Position numbers and translations under genes: made by a program. A stretch of DNA of 64,000 nucleotides from the NCBI RefSeq assembly GCF_902832885.1, contig NZ_CADFDK010000002.1:496001-560000 (forward strand), read 5' to 3'. The number at the start of each line of letters is the position of its first letter. The stretch's first letter is position 1. Below the pieces are notes generated by a model. That model was not told where the DNA came from. It did no database searches and saw only the letters and a list, made by a program, of their open reading frames with translations. This stretch comes from Burkholderia seminalis DSM 23518. GTDB lineage: Bacteria; Pseudomonadota; Gammaproteobacteria; Burkholderiales; Burkholderiaceae. Below, in pieces: positions 3,793 through 27,424 of the stretch.

Positions 3793-5604
3793 ATGGCTTC
3801 CTGGCTCGACTACACGCTCAACGGTCTCATCGTCGGCAACATCTACGCGCTGCTCGCGGTCGGGCTCGCGCTGATCTTCGGCGTGTCGCACCTGATCAAC
3901 TTCGCGCACGGCTCGGTCTACATGGTCGGCGCGTTCATCGGCTGGCTGTGCCTGACGCGCTTCGGCCTGCCGCTGCCGGTCGCGCTGGCGGCGGTCGTCG
4001 TCGGCTGCGGCGCGCTCGGCATCGCGATCGAGCGGATCGGGTTGCGGCCGCTGCGCCACGCGGCGCGCATCGCGCCGCTGCTCGCGACGATCGGCATCAG
4101 CTTCATCCTCGATCAGCTCGCGCAGCTTGCGTTCGGCGCGGATCCGCGTGCGGTGCCGACGCCGCTGCCCGACTGGCATGTGCGGATCGCTGGCGCGACG
4201 CTCGGCTCGCTCGACCTGCTGATCGCGGGTATCGGCATCGCGGCGGCCGCGCTGCTGTACGGCTTCCTGCGTTTCACGCGGCTCGGCTGGGCCGTCCGCG
4301 CGACCGCGCAGGATCGCGACGCGGCGCTGCAGATGGGCGTCGACGTCGACCGCGTGAACCAGACCGTGTTCGCGATCGCGTGCGCGCTCGGCGGCGTGAG
4401 CGGGCTCCTGGTCGGCATGTACTACAACAGCATCGATCCGGCGATGGGTTTCCAGGCGACGCTGAAGGGTGTCGTCGCGCTGCTGATCGGCGGGCTCGGC
4501 AACGTGCCGGGCGCGATCGCCGGCAGCCTGCTGCTCGGTCTCGTCGAAAGCTACGGCGTCGCGCTGTTCGGCACGAGCTATCGCGACCTGTTCGCGTTCG
4601 GGCTGCTGATCGTGTTCCTCGTGTGGCGGCCGAACGGCCTGTTCAGCGCCAACCGCGCGCTGCCGCCCGAGCCGATGACGGGCACCTTCCTCGCGGCCGC
4701 GAAGGCCGTGCGCGTGCCGCGCCCGGTGCTCGTCGCGCTGATCGCGCTGGCGGCCGTGCTGCCGTGGCTCGGCGCGTCGCCGTACGTGCTGCAGACGCTG
4801 ACCAATGCATGGCTGTACGGATTGCTCGCGCTGAGCCTCACGCTCGTCGCGGGCACGGTCGGGCAGATCTCGCTCGGCCACGCGGCGCTGCTCGTGATCG
4901 GCGCGTATGCGTCGGCGTTGTTGTCGTCGGATCTCGGCTGGTCGCCGGCCGTGACGATTCCGTGCGCGGGCGTCATCACGGCCGTGCTCGGCACGCTGCT
5001 CGTCTATCCGGCATTCCGGCTGCGCGGGCACTACGTGTCGATCGCGACGCTCGGCATCGGCGAAGTGGTGAGCCTCGTGATCCTGAACTGGGACGGCCTG
5101 ACGCGCGGCCCGCTCGGCATCACCGGCATCGCGCCGCTGCCGTGGGCGGGCACCGCGCGCGCCGCGTACTGGTTCACGTTCGCGGTGCTCGTCGCGTTCG
5201 CGCTCGTGCAGGTGCGGCTGCTGCGCTCGCATCTGGGCCGCACGCTGCGCGCGGTGCGCGAGGACGACGTCGCCGCGCGCGCGCACGGCATCGCGCCGAA
5301 CCGCTACAAGGCGATCGCGTTCGCGGTCGGCGGCGTCGCGGCGGGCGTGAGCGGCGGCATTGCCGCGCACCTGTACAGCTACATCAATCACCAGACCTTC
5401 GATTCGCAGGTGTCGATCCTCGCGCTGACGATGGTGATCCTCGGCGGGCTCGGCAACGTGCTCGGCGGCATCGCGGGCGCGATCGCGCTGATCGGGCTGC
5501 CCGAGCTGTTCCGCTGGGCGGCCGACTACCGGATGCTGATCTACGGCCTCGTGCTGCTGCTGCTCGTCCGGTTCCGGCCGCAGGGCCTGCTCGGTACGGT
5601 GTGA
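3793..5604 (+). CDS. Fused LivH-LivM ABC permease
   Basis: A single 603-residue reading frame holds both membrane subunits of a branched-chain-type importer. Residues 1 to about 290 are LivH-like ([20 protein letters not shown] at the start; [16 protein letters not shown]; ending VWRPNGLF). Residues about 310-603 are LivM-like ([46 protein letters not shown]; ending [12 protein letters not shown]). In most operons these are two genes. The linker ([16 protein letters not shown]) is in frame with no stop. ATG 3793 was chosen; GTG 3790 is immediately upstream. The transporter would be a permease heterodimer encoded as one chain, working with the two ATPases that follow. Confidence 0.9.
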
Positions 5605-5617
5605 GGAGAGGAATGCG

Positions 5618-6475
5618 ATGACGACCACTCGACCCTTGCTCGACGTGCAGGGATTGACGCGCCGCTTCGACGGCGTGACCGCGCTCGACGGCGCGAGCCT
5701 GACGCTGGCCGACGGCGAACTGCTGAGCGTGATCGGGCCGAACGGCGCGGGCAAGTCGACGCTGTTCAACCTGATCGCGGGGGCCGACCGGCCCGACGCG
5801 GGCCGCGTGACGTTCGACGGCCGCGACATCACGGGCACGGCGCCCGAACGGCTCGCGGCGCTTGGCATCGCGCGCACGTTCCAGCACGGCCGCGTGTTCG
5901 GCAACCTGAGCGTGCTCGACAACGTGCTGATCGGCGCGCATGCGCGGCTGCGCGCGGCGCGGCCGGGCTGGCCCGCGCTCGGTGCGGCCGCCGAGGTGCT
6001 GCGCGCGCTCGTGCGGCCGGCGTCGGTGCGGCGCGAGGAAGCCGCGCTGCGCGACGAGGCGCGCGCGATCGTCGCCGGGTTCGGCGAACGGCTCACGCCG
6101 CGCATCGATCATCCGGCGCACAGCCTGTCGTACGCGAACCGGCGGCGCGTCGAGATCGGCCGCGCGCTCGCGCTGCATCCGCGCCTGCTGCTGCTCGACG
6201 AACCGACGGCCGGCATGAACGAGACGGAGACGGCCGAGATGCTGCAGCTGATCCAGTCGCTGAAGGCGCGCGGGCTGACGATCCTGCTGATCGAGCACAA
6301 GCTCGAACTCGTGATGCGCGTGTCCGACCGCGTGATGGTGCTCGACAACGGCGTGAAGATCGCCGAGGGCGTGCCGCGCGACGTGCGGCACGATCCGCGC
6401 GTGATCGAAGCCTATCTCGGCCGCCGCCATGCGGGCGGCGCACCGGCCGATCGCACCGCCCGGGCGGCCGCATGA
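5618..6475 (+). CDS. ABC transporter ATP-binding protein, LivG-like
   Basis: A 285-residue ATPase. Walker A is GPNGAGKST (residues 40-48) and Walker B is LLLLDEPTAGM. The signature region reads LSYANRRRVEI rather than LSGGQ, which is normal for LivG proteins (LSYGxQRRLEI type). The C-terminal half has the LivG-typical ETAEMLQLI and IEHKLELVM. A good ribosome site (GAGGAGAGG) precedes ATG 5618, 13 bp after the permease stop. It couples ATP hydrolysis to solute import with the LivF-like partner encoded next, whose start overlaps this stop. Confidence 0.92.
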   Translation: MTTTRPLLDVQGLTRRFDGVTALDGASLTLADGELLSVIGPNGAGKSTLFNLIAGADRPDAGRVTFDGRDITGTAPERLAALGIARTFQHGRVFGNLSVLDNVLIGAHARLRAARPGWPALGAAAEVLRALVRPASVRREEAALRDEARAIVAGFGERLTPRIDHPAHSLSYANRRRVEIGRALALHPRLLLLDEPTAGMNETETAEMLQLIQSLKARGLTILLIEHKLELVMRVSDRVMVLDNGVKIAEGVPRDVRHDPRVIEAYLGRRHAGGAPADRTARAAA

Positions 6476-7236
6476 CCCTGCCTTCTTTCGGACCCGATAC
6501 GACGATGACCGACGCGCTGCTGAAACTCGAACACCTCGACACGTTCTACGGGCCGGTGCAGGTGCATTTCGACGTGAACTTCGAAGTCGGCCGCGGGCAG
6601 ATCGTCAGCCTGCTCGGCGGCAACGCGAGCGGCAAGTCGACGACGATGAAGCTGATCCTCGGCCTGATGCGGCCGAAGCGCGGCGTCGTGCGTTTCGACG
6701 GCGCCGACGTGACGGCGCTCGCGACGCCGCAGCGCGTGCGGCGCGGGATCGCGGCCGTGCCCGAGGCGCGGCGGCTGTTCGGCGACATGAGCGTGCGCGA
6801 GAACCTGCTGATGGGCGCGTACACGCGCGGCGATCGCGCGGCCGTGGCCGACGACTACGAACGCGTGCTCGACCTGTTTCCGCGCGTGCGCGAACGCTTG
6901 ACGCAGCGCGCCGGCACGCTGTCGGGCGGCGAGCAGCAGATGCTCGCGATGGCGCGTGCGCTGATGGCGCGGCCGAAGCTGATCTGCATGGACGAGCCGA
7001 CGATGGGGCTGTCGCCGCTTTACGTCGACAAGGTGCTCGAACTGATCGACGCGATCAACCGGCAGGGCGTGACGGTGTTCATGGTCGAGCAGAACGCGAG
7101 CCTGGCGCTGGAGATCGCGCATTACGGGTACGTGCTGCAGACGGGGCGCGTGGTGCTCGAAGGGCCGGCGAAGGCGCTGCTCGACGACGAGCGCGTGCGC
7201 GATGCGTATCTCGGCGGGGAGGCCGTGGCGGCGTAG
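6472..7236 (+). CDS. ABC transporter ATP-binding protein, LivF-like
   Basis: A 254-residue ATPase starting in an ATGA overlap with the LivG-like gene. Walker A is GGNASGKST (about residues 49-57), with N-A-S in place of the usual N-G-A. The signature is LSGGEQQMLAMARAL and Walker B is MDEPTMGLSP. The C-terminus has MVEQNASLALEIA, typical of LivF. An internal ATG at 6505 (MTDALLKLEHL) would remove a 11-residue leader and aligns better with family starts; the upstream start is kept because of the overlap. It is the last gene of the importer operon, ending 16 bp before the convergent DinB-like gene. Confidence 0.9.
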   Translation: MTLPSFGPDTTMTDALLKLEHLDTFYGPVQVHFDVNFEVGRGQIVSLLGGNASGKSTTMKLILGLMRPKRGVVRFDGADVTALATPQRVRRGIAAVPEARRLFGDMSVRENLLMGAYTRGDRAAVADDYERVLDLFPRVRERLTQRAGTLSGGEQQMLAMARALMARPKLICMDEPTMGLSPLYVDKVLELIDAINRQGVTVFMVEQNASLALEIAHYGYVLQTGRVVLEGPAKALLDDERVRDAYLGGEAVAA

Positions 7237-7252
7237 CGGGCCTGGCGTCAGC

Positions 7253-7816
7253 CTATCGCACTGCGGGTGCCGGATTCGCCGCTTCGGTTTTTCCCTGCAG
7301 CCTGCGCGCGGGTTCCGTCCGGTGCAGGTGAACGGCGTAGGTGTCCCACGGCAGTTCGATGGCTCGCCCCGAGCGTGCCGCCGCCTGGCTCATCAGGCGT
7401 CCGGCTTCGCCGCGATGATAGCCGCCGTGCGTGACGACATGGGTCAGCATCTCTTCGCGAGTCATGTATCCGCTGTCGCCGTCGGTGAACGTGAACGGAA
7501 TCGATTCGGACAGCATTCCGGGCGTGGCGGCGTCGGCATAGTCGAGATACCAGCGATCGAGCGACGCGAAGGCCGCACGCAGTGCGTCGGGCTCCGGCGT
7601 GTCGGGTGTGTTGTCGGACACGAAGCCATGGCGCTCGCCGGTCAGATGCGCGGCGAAGATCCGGTTGACGACGAGGCAATGGTTCATCAGCCGCAGCGCG
7701 AGATGGCGCGCTTCGGCGTGTTGCCCCGCATCGAGCCCGGCGATGGCCGCCAGCATGTCGTCATTCGCCCATGCCTGGTAGCGCAGCATGCGGGACAGGA
7801 GTGCGTTCGCGCTCAT
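7253..7816 (-). CDS. DinB-family protein
   Basis: A 187-residue protein of the DinB/YfiT four-helix metalloenzyme-like fold. It begins MSANALLSRMLRYQAWANDDML, the common DinB opening (LxxxMxxYNxWAN). Metal-ligand histidines are visible in LMNHCLVVNRIF and in LTHVVTHGGYHRGEAG (HxxxH plus following H), the family's triad. A strong ribosome site (GAGGAAA) lies upstream of ATG 7816. Members are thiol-dependent or stress-related enzymes of mostly unknown substrate. It is divergent from the disrupted TetR gene 68 bp away, which probably controlled it. Confidence 0.85.
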   Translation of the reverse strand: MSANALLSRMLRYQAWANDDMLAAIAGLDAGQHAEARHLALRLMNHCLVVNRIFAAHLTGERHGFVSDNTPDTPEPDALRAAFASLDRWYLDYADAATPGMLSESIPFTFTDGDSGYMTREEMLTHVVTHGGYHRGEAGRLMSQAAARSGRAIELPWDTYAVHLHRTEPARRLQGKTEAANPAPAVR

Positions 7817-19499: not shown

Positions 19500-19796
19500 T
19501 CATGCATGCTCCGGCTGGGCCAGGACGACGGACCGGCGCAGGCCGACGGTCTTGAGCACCGCGAGCAGGGTTTTCCGCGTCGGGTTGCCGTTCGGGGACA
19601 GCGTGCGATACAGCGATTCGCGGCTGATGCCGGCTTCGGCCGCGACCGCGCCGAGCCCGCCATAGGCTTCCGCGACCGTGCGCAGCGCGAGCAGGCCGGC
19701 CGCGCGATTGTCGGGATCGTCGAGCGATTCCATCGCGACGCGCAGATAGGCGACCGCGCACGCGCCGCTCGCCGCGCATTGCCGCCCGATCGTCAC
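19500..19796 (-). CDS. Addiction-module antidote-like helix-turn-helix protein, toxin absent
   Basis: A 98-residue protein whose middle reads YGGLGAVAAEAGISRESLYR followed by TLSPNGNPTRKTLLAVLKTV. This is the helix-turn-helix of HigA-like putative addiction-module antidotes that normally pair with a RelE-like toxin. It starts with GTG 19796 in a GTGA overlap with the monooxygenase-esterase stop; an internal ATG (MESLDDPDN) is an alternative. No toxin gene is adjacent. It may have been kept as a small regulator of the monooxygenase operon it is translationally coupled to. Confidence 0.7.
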   Translation of the reverse strand: MTIGRQCAASGACAVAYLRVAMESLDDPDNRAAGLLALRTVAEAYGGLGAVAAEAGISRESLYRTLSPNGNPTRKTLLAVLKTVGLRRSVVLAQPEHA

Positions 19797-22243
19797 GCGC
19801 TCGCGGCCACCCGTGCCGACGCAAATCCCGCCAGCGTGCGCAGTGCATCGCGCGCCGAGCGCAGGTAGAACGCCTGCAGATGAAACACGTGCCAGCGCGC
19901 CGCGTGAATCTCCAGCCGGCACGGCACGCCGCACGCGCGTGCGTGATCCGCCAGCCGTTGCGCATCCGACAGCAGCACCTCCTGGTCGCCGGCCTGAATC
20001 AGCATCGGCGGCAGACCGCGCAGGTCGGTGTCGAGCGGGCCGCGCGCGGCGGTCGAGCCGGCGCCGTGATACCAGCGCAGCCCCTGTTCGAGCCAGCCGC
20101 GCCGGATCATCGGATCGTCGCGGCGGCGCGAGGCCAGCGTCGGACCGCCGAGCGCCGGGTCGGTCACGGGCGAGATCAGCAGCAGCGCGGCGGCGGCCGG
20201 ATCGCCGCGCGCGCGCAGCGCAATGGCGAGTGAGAGGGCCAGCGCACCGCCGGCCGAGTCGCCGGCGATCACGATCCGGTGCGGCGCATGACCCTGCGCG
20301 CGCATCGCGTCGTACACGGCGAGCGCATCGTCGAGCGCGGCCGGGCTCGGATGCTCGGGCGCAAGGCGGTAATCGGGCACCCACACCGGCAGGCCGGCAT
20401 CGTTCGCGAGCCGCGTCGTCACGCCGCGATGCGTATGCGGGCCGCCGAGGCAGAATGCTCCGCCGTGGAGATACAGGATCGCGCCACCCGTGTCGCCGCG
20501 TTTCGGCGCGACGACTTCGACCGGCACGTGGTGCGCGGACGTGCGATAGCGCAGCGTGCCGCCGGCACCGGGCATCAGCGGCGACAGCAGCGCGACGACG
20601 CGGCGCTGCGTGCGTGCACCGAACGGCGGCCCGATCAGCGGCCGGAACGCAACGCGCAGGAAGCCGCGCAGCGAAGCGGCGGCGAGCGCCTCCAGCCGAC
20701 CGGCCGGCGGCGCGATCACCGTGCCGTGCGCTGCCGCGGCCGACTCGGGCAACGGGCGCGTGAAGCGGTATGCGGACATGCCGCCGACACGCGTGATCCA
20801 CCGGTAGGTCAGCGTGAAACCCGGCCAGTTCGTGCTGTTGTGCCCCGCTGCATCGACGTACCAGCTCTTGCAGCCGCTCCAGACCGAACCGGCGAGCCGC
20901 TGCTGCACGTGCGCGTTGAAGCGCCGGTAGCGGCGCGTATCGACGTCGATCTCGCGCGCGCCGTCGCGCCGCATCGCCCGCACGCAGCGCATCACGTGCG
21001 CGATCTGGCTTTCGAGCATGTAGACGATCGAGTTGTGCCCGAGGTTGGTGTTCGGGCCGTACAGCATGAAGAAGTTCGGGAAGCCGGGCACGGTGAGCCC
21101 GAGATACGCCTGCGCGCCGCGTCGCCACGCGTCGTTCAGGTCGAGCCCGTCGCGGCCCGTGATGCGCATCGGCGACAGGAATTCGGTTGCCGCGAACCCC
21201 GTGCCGTAGACGATCGCGTCGACCGGATGCTGGACGCCGTCGACGGTTTCGATGCCGTCCTCGGTCACGCGCCGGATGCGTTGCGTGACGAGCGCGACGT
21301 TGTCGCGGCTCATCGTCGCGAGGTATTCGCTCGACAGCAGGAGGCGCTTGCAGCCGATCGGGTAGTCGGGCGTGAGCCGGGCGCGCAACGCGGGGTCCGG
21401 CACGTCGCGCGCGAGCAGCTTGCGGAACGGCCGGCCGACCGCCACCTTCATCAGCCCGTGCAGGCGCGTGAACGCGATCGCACGCGATTCGTAGCGGGTG
21501 TAGATCCACGCGCGATGCAGCTTCATCGCCCACGGCATCCGGCGAAACATCGCCTTTTCCCACGGGCGATACGCGCGGTCGGGACGCGGTATCACGTAGG
21601 CCGGCGAACGCTGGAACACGGTCAGCTGCCGCACGCTGCCGGCGATCGCCGGGACGAACTGGATCGCCGACGCGCCGGTGCCGACCACGGCCACGCGCTT
21701 GCCGGCGAGCGAATAGTCGTGATCCCAGTGCGCGGAGTGGAACGCGCGGCCGCGGAACGTGTCGATGCCGGGCAGGTCGGGCATCGCCGGGCGGCTCAAC
21801 TGGCCGGTGCCGCTGACGAGCAGGGCGGCGCTGAGCGTCGTGCCGTCGACGAGCGTGACGTGCCACAGCGCACCGGTTTCGTCGTAGCGCGCGTGCCCGA
21901 CTTCGGCGCCGAAGCGCAGGTGGCGTGCGAGCCCGTACTTGCGTGCGCAATGCTGCAGGTATGCATGAATTTCCGGCTGCGGCGCGAACACGCGGGACCA
22001 GGCCGGATTCGGTTCGAACGAAAACGAATACAGGTGCGAGGGCACGTCGCACGCGGCGCCCGGGTAGCTGTTGTCGCGCCATACGCCGCCGACGTCGTGC
22101 GAGCGTTCGACGATCACGAAATCGTGGATGCCGGCGCGTTGCAGCGCGACGGCCATGCCGATGCCGGCGAAGCCGGCGCCGATGATGATCGCGGCAAGCG
22201 GTGCGGCGGAGCCGGCGCAACGGGAAGGATCAGGCGACAGCAT
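19793..22243 (-). CDS. Baeyer-Villiger monooxygenase fused to an HSL-family esterase
   Basis: An 816-residue two-enzyme protein. Residues about 10-500 are a flavin monooxygenase: FAD motif IIGAGFAGIGMAVAL (about residue 18), the Baeyer-Villiger fingerprint FRGRAFHSAHW, and a NADPH motif VVGTGASAIQF. Residues about 560-816 are an alpha/beta hydrolase of the hormone-sensitive-lipase family: oxyanion HGGAF (593), GDSAGG with Ser663, Asp753 in QAGDQ and His785 in RWHVFH. The first domain would turn a ketone into an ester and the second would cleave it, so both steps of ketone degradation sit on one chain. ATG 22243 overlaps the GMC gene end. Confidence 0.9.
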   Translation of the reverse strand: MLSPDPSRCAGSAAPLAAIIIGAGFAGIGMAVALQRAGIHDFVIVERSHDVGGVWRDNSYPGAACDVPSHLYSFSFEPNPAWSRVFAPQPEIHAYLQHCARKYGLARHLRFGAEVGHARYDETGALWHVTLVDGTTLSAALLVSGTGQLSRPAMPDLPGIDTFRGRAFHSAHWDHDYSLAGKRVAVVGTGASAIQFVPAIAGSVRQLTVFQRSPAYVIPRPDRAYRPWEKAMFRRMPWAMKLHRAWIYTRYESRAIAFTRLHGLMKVAVGRPFRKLLARDVPDPALRARLTPDYPIGCKRLLLSSEYLATMSRDNVALVTQRIRRVTEDGIETVDGVQHPVDAIVYGTGFAATEFLSPMRITGRDGLDLNDAWRRGAQAYLGLTVPGFPNFFMLYGPNTNLGHNSIVYMLESQIAHVMRCVRAMRRDGAREIDVDTRRYRRFNAHVQQRLAGSVWSGCKSWYVDAAGHNSTNWPGFTLTYRWITRVGGMSAYRFTRPLPESAAAAHGTVIAPPAGRLEALAAASLRGFLRVAFRPLIGPPFGARTQRRVVALLSPLMPGAGGTLRYRTSAHHVPVEVVAPKRGDTGGAILYLHGGAFCLGGPHTHRGVTTRLANDAGLPVWVPDYRLAPEHPSPAALDDALAVYDAMRAQGHAPHRIVIAGDSAGGALALSLAIALRARGDPAAAALLLISPVTDPALGGPTLASRRRDDPMIRRGWLEQGLRWYHGAGSTAARGPLDTDLRGLPPMLIQAGDQEVLLSDAQRLADHARACGVPCRLEIHAARWHVFHLQAFYLRSARDALRTLAGFASARVAASA

Positions 22244-23948
22244 GGCGGGTTTCCTCGGGCTGGATGACGTCGTGTGCCGCGCGCGCGGCACGGGGGGAAT
22301 CGCAATCCGTCGCTGTCCTGACGGTCTCGCCGGCATGCGGCCGGTCCGGCACGCGGCGCACGCCGCGCATCAGGTCGACGGCCTTCTCGGCGATCATGAT
22401 CGTCGGCGCGTTGGTGTTGCCGCCGATCAGCGTCGGCATCACCGACGCATCGACGATGCGCAGTCCCTGCAGGCCGCGCACGCGCAGTTGCGGATCGACG
22501 ACGGCGAGTGCGTCGTGCCCCATCCGGCAGGTGCCGACCGGGTGATACACGGTGTCGGTGCGCCGCCTCAGCACGTCGCGGATCTCGTCGTCGGTCGTCA
22601 CGTTCGCGGTGAACAGGTCGCGCGTGATCCAGCTCGCGAGCGCCGGTGCTTCCATCAGCCGGCGCGTGATGCGGAAGCCCGCGACCATGTCGTCGACGTC
22701 GCGCGGATCGTCGAAGAACGCGGGGTCGATGCGCGGCGCCGCGAGCGGATCGGCGCTGTTCAGCGTGACCGAGCCGCGGCTGCGCGGCCGCAGCAGGCAC
22801 ACGTGGCACGACAGCCCGTGGCCGGCATGCGGCTTGCGCGCATGGTCGTCGACGAGCGCGACGACGAAATGCAGCTGGATGTCCGGCGCGGCGAGATCGG
22901 CGCGCGTTTTCAGGAACCCGCCGCCTTCCGCGAAATTCGACGTCAGCATCCCGCGCCGTTCGCGGCGAAAGCGCGCGAACTCGCGCAGCATCCGCAGGCC
23001 GCCGCGTGCGGACACGCCCATCGTGTCGACGCTGCGCGTGCGATAGCCGAAGATGAAATCCGGATGATCCTGCAGGTTGCGCCCGACGCCGGGCAGGTCC
23101 GCCAGCACCGCGATGCCGAACTGCCGGAGTGCGCGGCCCGGGCCGACGCCCGACAGCATCAGCAACTGCGGCGTCTGCAGCGCGCCGGCCGCGAGCACGA
23201 CTTCGCGCCGCGCGCGCAGCGTGCGGACCTCGCCGTGCTGGCGGACCTCGACGCCGATCGCGCGCGTGCCGTCGAACAGGATGCGCAGCACCTGCGCGTG
23301 CGTCTCGACCGTCAGGTTGTCGCGGCGGCCCAGATGCGGCAGCAGGTACGCGCGCGCCGCGCTCCAGCGTTCGCCGTGCTTCTGCGTGACCTGGTAGATC
23401 CCGATGCCCTCCTGCCGCGCACCGTTGAAATCGTCGGTGAGCGGCAGGCCGGCCTGTCGCGCGGCTTCCAGGTAGCGTGCATGGAACGGGTTGTCGGTGC
23501 GCAGGTCGCTGACCCACAGCGGGCCGTCGCGGCCGTGCCATGCATCGTCGAAGCGCTCGTTGTGCTCGCTCAGGCGGAAGTACGGCAGCACGTCGTCGTA
23601 CCCCCAGCCTTCGTTGCCGAGCGCGGCCCAGCCGTCGTAGTCGACACGATGGCCGCGGATGTAGACCATCGCGTTGATCGCCGACGATCCGCCGAGCGTC
23701 CTGCCGCGCGGCTGGTAGCCGATGCGTCCGCCGAGCCCGGGCTGCGGCACCGTGTCGAACGCCCAGTTGTTCAGGCGCGTGGACATCATCGCGACCGCGC
23801 CGGTCGGCACGTTGACGAGCGCGCCGTCGCCACGGCCGCCGGCCTCCAGCACGCATACGGTCACGGCCGGGTCCTCGGTCAGGCGCCCGGCGACGACGCA
23901 GCCGCCCGATCCGCCGCCGACGACGATGTAGTCGAACGTCTTGCTCAT
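22230..23948 (-). CDS. GMC-family FAD-dependent alcohol/choline dehydrogenase-like oxidoreductase
   Basis: A 572-residue flavoenzyme beginning MSKTFDYIVVGGGSGGCVVA (FAD Rossmann motif). Further marks are GRTLGGSSAINAMVYIRG and AAGALQTPQLLMLSGVGP (GMC signatures) and the catalytic pair in HPVGTCRMG (His) and GGNTNAPTIMIAEKAVDL (Asn). The ribosome site AAAGGAGACGATTCC is excellent. Next to a Baeyer-Villiger enzyme, it likely oxidises a secondary alcohol to the ketone used by that enzyme; this ordering of steps is inference. The 3' end overlaps the monooxygenase gene by 14 bp. Confidence 0.9.
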   Translation of the reverse strand: MSKTFDYIVVGGGSGGCVVAGRLTEDPAVTVCVLEAGGRGDGALVNVPTGAVAMMSTRLNNWAFDTVPQPGLGGRIGYQPRGRTLGGSSAINAMVYIRGHRVDYDGWAALGNEGWGYDDVLPYFRLSEHNERFDDAWHGRDGPLWVSDLRTDNPFHARYLEAARQAGLPLTDDFNGARQEGIGIYQVTQKHGERWSAARAYLLPHLGRRDNLTVETHAQVLRILFDGTRAIGVEVRQHGEVRTLRARREVVLAAGALQTPQLLMLSGVGPGRALRQFGIAVLADLPGVGRNLQDHPDFIFGYRTRSVDTMGVSARGGLRMLREFARFRRERRGMLTSNFAEGGGFLKTRADLAAPDIQLHFVVALVDDHARKPHAGHGLSCHVCLLRPRSRGSVTLNSADPLAAPRIDPAFFDDPRDVDDMVAGFRITRRLMEAPALASWITRDLFTANVTTDDEIRDVLRRRTDTVYHPVGTCRMGHDALAVVDPQLRVRGLQGLRIVDASVMPTLIGGNTNAPTIMIAEKAVDLMRGVRRVPDRPHAGETVRTATDCDSPRAARAAHDVIQPEETRHAVA

Positions 23949-25804: not shown

Positions 25805-26758
25805 TCAGACGGCGAACGCGCCGTCGAACACGATCCGTTCGTCGAGCGCGAGCGTGCCGCGCGCGAAGATCAGGTCGAGGTGATGGCTGCCGTTTTCGCC
25901 GCCGCCGAGCCCGAGATGCAGGCCCGGATGGCGTTCCTCGAACCCGGCGTTGCGGCCGTACAGTCCGCGGATGCCGAGGTTCGTGCCGATGCCGAATTCC
26001 TCGATGCGCCGGTGGTTCGCGTGCCGGTCGAGATAGGTCGTGAAATCGCGTCGAAAGCCGGCATCGTCGGTGTCGAAATCGACGATCGTGCTGTTCTCGA
26101 CCCGCAGCGTCGCGAGCCGCTCGGCCACCTTGTACTTGATCGCGAACGGCACGGTGCCGAGAAACGTGCCGCTGAACACGACCGAGCCGTTCAGGTCGGT
26201 CACGTGCGTCGCGATCTCGCCGGGCACGACGTCGAGGTTGCCCATGCCGTCGACGCTCGTCCATTTCTGGTCCGGTGCGAGCGAGCCCGTCAGCGTGTTG
26301 CCGGCTTCGTCGATGAAGCGGATCCGTGACGCGCGTGCGGCCGCGTCGATCAACCGGCCGTTGCGTGCGGCGATGTCGTCGAGCGATTCGGCGAAGGCTT
26401 CGTCGAGATGCGGGCCGTAATCCTTGAACAAGACCGACTTGCTCCAGTGCTCGACGATCGCGGGGCGGATCGCGGCGAGGAACGGCGGCCCGCTCGGCGA
26501 GGGTGTCGGCAGGCACGACGAGTCGTACAGCAGCACGAACAGGTCGGCGTCATTGAGCGCGGCGGCGATGTCGGCGGGCGGGGTGCTTTCGAGGCAGAGG
26601 GTCGTGGCGTCGAGCGAATCGGGCAGGGCGGAAAACGCGCGCAACGCGATGTCGCGGTTGCGGGTGTCATGGCCGACCAGCAGTTTTCCCGACTCGCCGC
26701 GCGCCAGCTTGTCGTGCAGCGCGGGGTGAAACCCGAGCGCGCGGTGCAGGTTCAGCAT
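25805..26758 (-). CDS. M29-like metallopeptidase fold protein (aminopeptidase-like)
   Basis: A 317-residue protein starting MLNLHRALGFHPALHDKL. The C-terminal half has the M29 aminopeptidase ligand pattern: RIEEFGIGTNLGIRG (Glu253/254), HPGLHLGLGGG (His281) and SHHLDLIF (His292/293 with Asp295), all in the order seen in AmpS/AmpT. It is shorter than those enzymes (about 400) with a divergent N-terminal half. The same fold also includes the NicX ring-cleaving dioxygenase, so peptidase activity is likely but not proven. A GGAG site precedes ATG 26758. It is the second gene after a 40-codon peptide gene, with a stem-loop between, suggesting that the peptide is its substrate. Confidence 0.7.
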   Translation of the reverse strand: MLNLHRALGFHPALHDKLARGESGKLLVGHDTRNRDIALRAFSALPDSLDATTLCLESTPPADIAAALNDADLFVLLYDSSCLPTPSPSGPPFLAAIRPAIVEHWSKSVLFKDYGPHLDEAFAESLDDIAARNGRLIDAAARASRIRFIDEAGNTLTGSLAPDQKWTSVDGMGNLDVVPGEIATHVTDLNGSVVFSGTFLGTVPFAIKYKVAERLATLRVENSTIVDFDTDDAGFRRDFTTYLDRHANHRRIEEFGIGTNLGIRGLYGRNAGFEERHPGLHLGLGGGENGSHHLDLIFARGTLALDERIVFDGAFAV

Positions 26759-26775
26759 GCGTATCTCCGGAAGCG

Positions 26776-26799
26776 GCGGAAGGGCCGAGGCCCTTCCGC
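26776..26799 (-). repeat. Perfect 11-bp stem-loop between peptide and peptidase genes
   Basis: GCGGAAGGGCC (26776-26786) and GGCCCTTCCGC (26789-26799) are perfect inverted repeats separated by two bases. The structure sits in the 58-bp gap between the peptide stop (26817) and the peptidase start (26758). No T run follows on the minus strand, so it is more likely a partial attenuator or 3'-end stabiliser that keeps peptide mRNA in excess than a full terminator. Confidence 0.7.
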
Positions 26800-26816
26800 G
26801 AGAACGGGTGGCCCGC

Positions 26817-26939
26817 TCAGACCGGCCAGAGCGCGGTGCCGAACGGCACCACGGCGTCCTCGACCATCATGTCGACGGCCTCGGGGTGCGTGTCTTCCTG
26901 CATCCAGTCAAGCAATTCGATCTGCTGGGTGTCCTGCAT
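26817..26939 (-). CDS. 40-residue acidic peptide gene, candidate precursor or signalling peptide
   Basis: The frame opens at ATG 26939 after an ideal ribosome site (CAGGAGAATTGAC) and stops at 26817-26819. The peptide begins MQDTQQIELLDWMQED and ends EDAVVPFGTALWPV. It has nine Asp/Glu and no Lys or Arg, no Cys, two Trp, and a hydrophobic C-terminus. That biased composition in DNA that otherwise yields Arg-rich chance frames argues that it is a real gene. It lies first in an operon with the M29-like peptidase and carries its own AT-rich promoter region. Leader-plus-core layout (acidic N-terminal part, short hydrophobic C-terminal part) recalls ribosomally made peptide precursors, but no known modification enzyme is adjacent, so the role is open. 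Confidence 0.65.
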   Translation of the reverse strand: MQDTQQIELLDWMQEDTHPEAVDMMVEDAVVPFGTALWPV

Positions 26940-27424
26940 GTCAATTCTCCTGTGGTGAACATGAGTGATTCAACATGAAAGTGCGGTAGAAAATCTTGCC
27001 GCTCCTTGTTCGGTATTTCGTGAATGCCGGACAAGTGGCGTCGATATTAGTCTGATGATTTTGTTAATGCAATGCATTGCGACGTTTTTAGCCAAAGCGT
27101 GCTAAACACCGGCATTTTATCGAGGTCGACGGGAAAAGGAGGCCGATAAATAGAATAACGGGACCGACCTGATTTTCCAATTATCGGGATTCCGTTCGAT
27201 TAATGCATTCGGCCGTTTTTTATAATTCGACGTGCAATGGCGTCGATTATTTCGCATTGCGTGATTCATGAAAGACGATCGCGCACGCGTATCACGCGCA
27301 TATTGCGCGCGGGCCCGCGTGCGGCGATGCCTCCGGTTTTCTGGCACCATCTGACGATCTTGCGCGATGGCCGCGGCCGCGTGCGCCGTCGTCAGGACGG
27401 CATCACAACGATGGAGACGACCCG
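26940..27424. promoter_or_regulatory. AT-rich divergent control region with two palindromes
   Basis: This 485-bp gap separates the leftward peptide/peptidase genes from a rightward MFS gene and is clearly AT-richer than its surroundings between about 26965 and 27260. GCAATGCATTGC at 27069-27080 is a perfect 12-bp palindrome. TTTAGC-N8-GCTAAA at 27087-27106 is a second clean dyad 6 bp away. Both look like operators. I see no further gene; Arg-rich frames across it are not credible. Confidence 0.6.

Follow-up and report, generated by a model that had tools for sequence, protein, structure and literature searches.

A putative two-gene peptide system in Burkholderia seminalis: a short acidic peptide gene beside a CgnB-like metalloprotein

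Introduction

Is the short open reading frame (ORF) next to a metallopeptidase-like gene of Burkholderia seminalis DSM 23518 a gene, and if so, what would its neighbour do with the product? Both lie on the minus strand of a stretch of 64,000 nucleotides (contig NZ_CADFDK010000002.1, positions 496,001 to 560,000), referred to here as the window, whose numbering is used throughout. The short frame (26817..26939) encodes an acidic peptide of 40 residues and is followed by a gene for a protein of 317 residues (25805..26758). The original prediction, made from the letters alone, took the peptide to be trimmed or otherwise matured by the larger protein, regarded as an M29-like peptidase. Our analysis shows that the short frame is a gene and that it is tied to its neighbour. 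We consider it fairly probable that the pair forms a two-gene system of the RiPP type (ribosomally synthesized and post-translationally modified peptide), consisting of a putative precursor and a CgnB-like metalloprotein. A literature search found no paper on this peptide-protein pair, and the strings VVPFGTA, VPFGTALWP and VPFGTAMWP did not occur in the literature texts searched.

The peptide gene

The frame begins with an ATG at 26939, its stop codon ends at 26817, and its 40 codons translate to MQDTQQIELLDWMQEDTHPEAVDMMVEDAVVPFGTALWPV. A CAGGAG ribosome-binding site (26947..26952, minus strand) lies 7 nt upstream of the ATG, and its GGAG part is kept in an 18-row alignment of Burkholderia sequences. 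The peptide contains nine Asp or Glu residues, one His and neither Lys nor Arg. These features, as well as the 58-bp gap to the next gene, are in the sequence exactly as first described. The composition is also unlike that of chance frames, as the original prediction had argued: of the 81 first-ATG frames with 35–60 residues that the window contains, no other is free of Lys and Arg, and no other combines at most one such residue with at least nine acidic ones.

The comparative data provide stronger evidence for a gene than the composition. The ratio of nonsynonymous to synonymous substitution rates (dN/dS), taken across all pairs, which are not independent, was 0.124 in 28 Burkholderia frames (21 distinct) and 0.109 in 29 Pseudomonas frames, a pattern of coding constraint that bears out the predicted gene. 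In the Burkholderia frames, 7, 5 and 22 of 40 columns vary at codon positions 1, 2 and 3, respectively. The proportion of synonymous differences (pS, 0.204) exceeds that of nonsynonymous ones (pN, 0.029), and this ratio is reversed when the same DNA is read in either shifted frame. The mean ungapped identity to the window drops from 0.958 within the frame to 0.345 in the 60 bp starting 123 bp before the ATG. The 40-codon frame is a true gene under purifying selection, separately in two genera, and the conservation of the peptide is far beyond chance.

For the motif, 81 peptides were compared (78 from the loci described below, the window's own and two of a diverged type), with start codons picked by a script. 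The 44 distinct sequences, 37–45 residues long, share the pattern LxxW...(TH)xxAVxMMxxxAVVPFGTAxWP, in which L, W, M, T and W are unchanged throughout. The C-terminal AVVPFGTA(L/M)W(P) is nearly fixed, so that the proposed conserved C-terminal part is indeed present. Such conservation across genera would suit a signal or a cofactor-like role more than a fast-evolving antimicrobial.

Linkage of peptide and protein

A genome-collection search with the 317-residue protein gave 209 relatives, of which the best 80 were fetched. A homologous small frame adjoins the protein gene in 78 of these 80 loci, as the suggested functional link between the two genes had implied; the genera are Burkholderia, Paraburkholderia, Photorhabdus, Xenorhabdus, Chromobacterium and Pseudomonas, with members from soil, plants and insects. 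The remaining two loci contain too little sequence on the side in question. In L071, 184 bp precede the match, and the motif of its relatives L067 and L069 lies farther out than that (other Photorhabdus loci carry the motif closer); L079 stops just behind the protein gene, on the side where the Xenorhabdus loci L077 and L096 have their peptide. We also searched 65 genomes of the genus for the protein (E ≤ 0.001) and the peptide (E ≤ 0.01) and found them in 51 and 50 genomes, respectively. Presence agrees in 64, and the single disagreement (G057) is a fragmented assembly holding an 85-residue stretch of the protein. Peptide and protein are thus tied one-to-one as a unit.

This linkage extends to more distant copies. 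A diverged protein type (47–49% identity) occurs in five genomes, in four of them beside the main copy and in G027 alone, and each such protein has its own peptide ending in AVIPFATALWA, 19–55 bp before the open frame. A member from another family of the same class (L151) carries a peptide as well. Overall the system is patchy, with a protein match in 8 of 398 genomes of a phylum sample and 3 of 369 of a class sample, the source genome (7.97 Mb) included. The nearest named relatives of the window's protein are from Burkholderia. No match was obtained in a phage collection; three Burkholderia replicons of a plasmid collection matched, with no annotated gene beneath the match. In a tree of 17 proteins, which carries a long-branch warning, the copy from Paraburkholderia humisilvae groups with Pseudomonas (100/99), a placement that suggests either transfer or ancient duplication. 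A decayed protein gene, consisting of two fragments with internal stops, was observed in a genome of 1.7 Mb (G486, locus L152), where a pattern scan detected no peptide.

The hairpin between the two genes

A stem-loop with a 10-bp stem (26776..26799, minus strand) separates the two genes in the window. It resembles a terminator or attenuator, and the window's copy has no T-run. Stems were searched between the peptide and the first matched codon of the protein, or in the 100 bp behind relocated peptides. Stems of 8 bp or more without interruption were present in 67 of 73 distinct stretches, compared with 389 of 2190 mononucleotide shuffles. The folding energy of the gap is moderately low relative to script-made shuffles (median z = -2.0; 36 of 71 at or below -2). 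The stem sequences of each genus are entirely its own, and a terminator-like T-run comes after the stem in some loci of Pseudomonas and Chromobacterium. A hairpin after the peptide suggests that the peptide is made from an abundant mRNA with an end of its own.

A short ORF with a conserved C-terminus and a Pro next to or near the stop, followed by a hairpin and a structural gene, is also what one would expect of an arrest peptide or cis-acting leader that governs the transcription or translation of the gene after it. We regard this as very unlikely, since L077 and L096 have the two genes in the opposite order, the peptide following the protein gene, with its five invariant residues retained and a hairpin again behind it. 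In the other loci, the first matched codon comes anywhere from 57 to 239 bp after the stop of the peptide.

Fold and metal site of the 317-residue protein

The protein gene starts after the 58-bp gap on the same strand and has its own GGAG. Its predicted structure adopts the M29/CgnB fold across nearly its whole length in a fold search, in agreement with the M29-like fold foreseen from sequence. Scans against Pfam and NCBIfam gave no meaningful family for the protein family and no Pfam family at all for the window's protein. An hhalign comparison of the family with seven M29 proteins reached a probability of 0.2% (E = 0.28). A distant relative, L127, serves as an intermediate, aligning with the family at a probability of 98.6% and matching Peptidase_M29 (PF02073) at E = 0.00053, below the cut-off. 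As the direct alignment to M29 proteins is weak, it is the predicted structure and this intermediate that connect the protein to M29.

On the evidence of its sequence, the protein is not a normal M29 aminopeptidase. The catalytic Tyr of M29 enzymes, which follows the metal-binding His by seven residues and is invariant in the seven true M29 proteins (Y346), faces a variable position (E288) here. The spacing between the metal-binding His and the HxD motif is 12 residues instead of 33, about 20 fewer than in enzymes such as AmpT (2ayi), AmpS (1zjc) and PepS (4icq), and the chain has 317 instead of about 400 residues. These differences make it quite unlikely that a true M29-type peptidase trims the peptide to free its C-terminal part, even though the fold search finds the M29 fold and, of 17 family members scanned at E ≤ 1, one matches Peptidase_M29 (E = 0.0019, short of the curated cut-off). 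In addition, CgnB showed no aminopeptidase activity (PMC10070186). The original proposal of a trimming peptidase is therefore not upheld.

From sequence and model, the protein looks like a distant relative of CgnB, which contains metal and binds the precursor peptide in the biosynthesis of the RiPP crocagin. CgnB and its partner CgnE (6zsv, 6zsu) likewise have an M29-derived fold without a Pfam family above the cut-off. CgnB binds its metal through E161, E252, E274, H280, H291 and D293. In a profile alignment, five residues that are invariant in our family alignments, the presumed ligands E254, E275, H281, H293 and D295 (codons E254 to D295, 25874..25999, minus strand), are in register with five of these six zinc ligands. 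E181, outside this alignment and also invariant in the family, is a likely candidate for the sixth. This carboxylate-rich set speaks against a further alternative, namely that the protein is an Fe(II) oxygenase like NicX that oxidizes Trp or Thr of the peptide and has no CgnB-like role. NicX, a 2,5-dihydroxypyridine dioxygenase (7cup, 7cn3), is described as a mononuclear Fe(II) enzyme acting on a small molecule with a site of H265, S302, H318 and D320 (PMC7910607). Judged by comparing ligand lists rather than by a residue-level alignment, we consider a NicX-like oxygenase to be highly improbable.

L127 itself (4969-7003 of its locus, genome G461) has 397 residues, the five C-terminal metal ligands and a counterpart of E181. 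The next ORF (6056-7003), with which its end overlaps, includes a HEAVH stretch of the HExxH type, and no VVPFGT-type peptide was seen in the ORF list of this locus. The two ORFs may form another kind of pair for peptide modification that uses this fold.

Comparison with crocagin biosynthesis and proposed mechanism

In the crocagin pathway, CgnB binds the precursor peptide, and rings are formed efficiently with CgnB, CgnC and CgnE together (PMC10070186). This precursor combines a basic leader with an Ile-Tyr-Trp core, and its conversion requires the oxygenase CgnC. CgnB/CgnE homologues with 21–42% identity were described there from about 100 genomes, and candidate precursors for the single-copy cases are listed in the supplement. 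Clusters of the crocagin type are already known, and antiSMASH 7 includes crocagins in its detection (PMC10320115). The present family is probably outside that homologue set, because the structural alignments to CgnB give 12–15% identity and searches with the single sequence or the close family miss CgnB; some of its peptides may be among the supplementary precursors of PMC10070186.

As in RiPP systems in general, a short encoded precursor with conserved parts stands beside a presumed enzyme, and as in the crocagin system a conserved Trp lies at or near the precursor C-terminus. We propose the following mechanism. The 40-residue peptide would be a ribosomal precursor, in which the acidic, probably helical N-terminal part with the invariant LxxW and the conserved AVxMM serves for recognition and AVVPFGTA(L/M)W(P) is the core. 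By analogy with CgnB, the protein, with its presumed metal site of the CgnB type, may bind the acidic leader and may modify or present the core, the region of the invariant Thr and Trp being the most likely site. There is no oxygenase beside the protein, which would either suffice alone or have a partner elsewhere in the genome, and the last steps would fall to housekeeping or unlinked enzymes. With the hairpin between the genes, more peptide than enzyme would be made. Binding, modification, reaction and product are all predictions from the comparison.

Several observations weigh against this reading. The top fold match was NicX and not CgnB. The best match in the PDB of a profile including L127 was CgnB, at a non-significant E of 0.22, and CgnB was missed by phmmer and profile searches of the PDB that started from the single sequence or its close relatives (close-family profile up to E = 10). 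In a model of peptide and protein linked together, the leader reached a predicted local distance difference test score (pLDDT) of about 58 and the core remained below 50, so that the peptide was not placed with confidence. Unlike crocagin loci, these loci have no visible second, metal-dead copy and neither a CgnC oxygenase nor other conserved cluster genes. The peptides are acidic, 37–45 residues long and have the core VVPFGTAxWP, whereas CgnA has 21 residues, a basic leader and an IYW end; no terminal Tyr-Trp occurs in our peptides, which end in TAxW(P) after an acidic leader. Finally, the protein is acidic as well (isoelectric point 5.1–6.2 in all 17 family members), and with both partners acidic, recognition must differ from the charge-based mode proposed for CgnA.

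Alternatively, the peptide could act unmodified, either as a subunit of the metalloprotein or by activating, inhibiting or chaperoning it, and the true substrate of the metalloprotein would be a small molecule. The N-terminal LxxW and AVxMM are conserved as well as the C-terminus, the linkage is strictly one-to-one and the fold search ranks a dioxygenase of small molecules first. The gap hairpin, however, would fit peptide and protein made in different amounts better than a 1:1 complex, and the peptide stops abruptly after the conserved W or WP, as a core would. We judge such a micro-protein unlikely.

The precursors of pyrroloquinoline quinone (PQQ; PqqA) and mycofactocin (MftA) are short, have cores that are nearly unchanged across genera and belong to clusters with radical S-adenosylmethionine enzymes. 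Unlike these systems, the present one has one enzyme gene and no known product. As a speculative extension of the RiPP-type reading, one might see a minimal RiPP family in which a stand-alone, metal-dependent CgnB-like enzyme and an acidic precursor give an almost unchanging product, a peptide-derived cofactor or intracellular signal comparable to PQQ or mycofactocin, common to Burkholderia, Pseudomonas, Photorhabdus, Xenorhabdus and Chromobacterium. Well-studied bacteria of soil and insects would thereby gain a small peptide that they share and that has no name so far. The catalytic role of CgnB is hard to isolate, since the efficient reaction also needs CgnC and CgnE (PMC10070186). If the RiPP-type reading is true, a lone CgnB-like protein with one precursor would show how this fold acts on a peptide, with two genes to express. 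The pair would also illustrate how short precursor genes go unnoticed.

Upstream elements

A promoter-like block, TTGCAT-17-TAATAT (27044..27072, minus strand), is conserved in most aligned Burkholderia leaders; a scan with the sigma-70 consensus found no site, this block included. Directly behind it, near the presumed transcript start, the 5' untranslated region forms a predicted hairpin (27000..27040, minus strand). In an alignment of 19 of 26 distinct Burkholderia leaders (seven more distant ones omitted), 94.4% of the cells are paired and the covariation score is 0.218, and neither value was reached by any of 500 shuffles. For two other measures, pairs with a change on both sides and further pair types, 57 and 78 of the 500 shuffles, respectively, did as well as the real alignment. 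Nothing in Rfam came near its gathering score for this hairpin. Pseudomonas leaders fold at a similar place, less regularly. Upstream of the promoter-like block, a dyad TTTAGC-8-GCTAAA (27087..27106, minus strand) is a candidate operator. In 18 aligned Burkholderia upstream regions its left half is nearly invariant and its right half varies in the most distant rows.

Neighbouring genes

Among ORFs of at least 90 residues in 26 loci spanning the genera, we found no convincing third partner that is conserved across genera, no second metal-dead copy corresponding to CgnE and no oxygenase-like shared neighbour (CgnC itself was not used as a query). The earlier statement that no familiar modification enzyme is adjacent is therefore correct for the flanking genes, but it overlooked that the neighbour itself resembles a distant relative of a RiPP-modification protein. 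Two clusters of neighbours cross genera and were judged incidental: a permease-like protein (amino-acid-permease-like by reading) on differing sides in seven Pseudomonas and three Xenorhabdus loci, and a second cluster, not resembling an operon partner, in L058 and four Xenorhabdus loci.

The window's own neighbours were sought by tblastn at 40% identity or more. In the 28 Burkholderia loci, we found the MFS gene in 22, GNAT in 25, AraC in 13, GMC in 12, the flavin reductase in 20 and the response regulator in 20; none of the six was present in the 52 other loci. All six were dropped as operon partners because they occur in Burkholderia loci only, and the MFS, GNAT and AraC genes are on the opposite strand.

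In Paraburkholderia rhizosphaerae (L059), an ORF of 229 residues (7019-7708) closely follows the protein gene on the same strand and could be a lineage-specific tailoring partner. It gave no Pfam match and no meaningful PDB match, and a search without a positive control found a homologue in none of the 65 Burkholderia genomes.

Elsewhere in the window, a single ORF of 847 residues (19793-22336, minus strand) adjoins a GMC oxidoreductase and an AraC-type regulator. It combines an FMO-like flavin-binding monooxygenase part with an alpha/beta hydrolase (Abhydrolase_3) and looks like a fusion of a Baeyer-Villiger monooxygenase with an esterase, to judge from these two parts.
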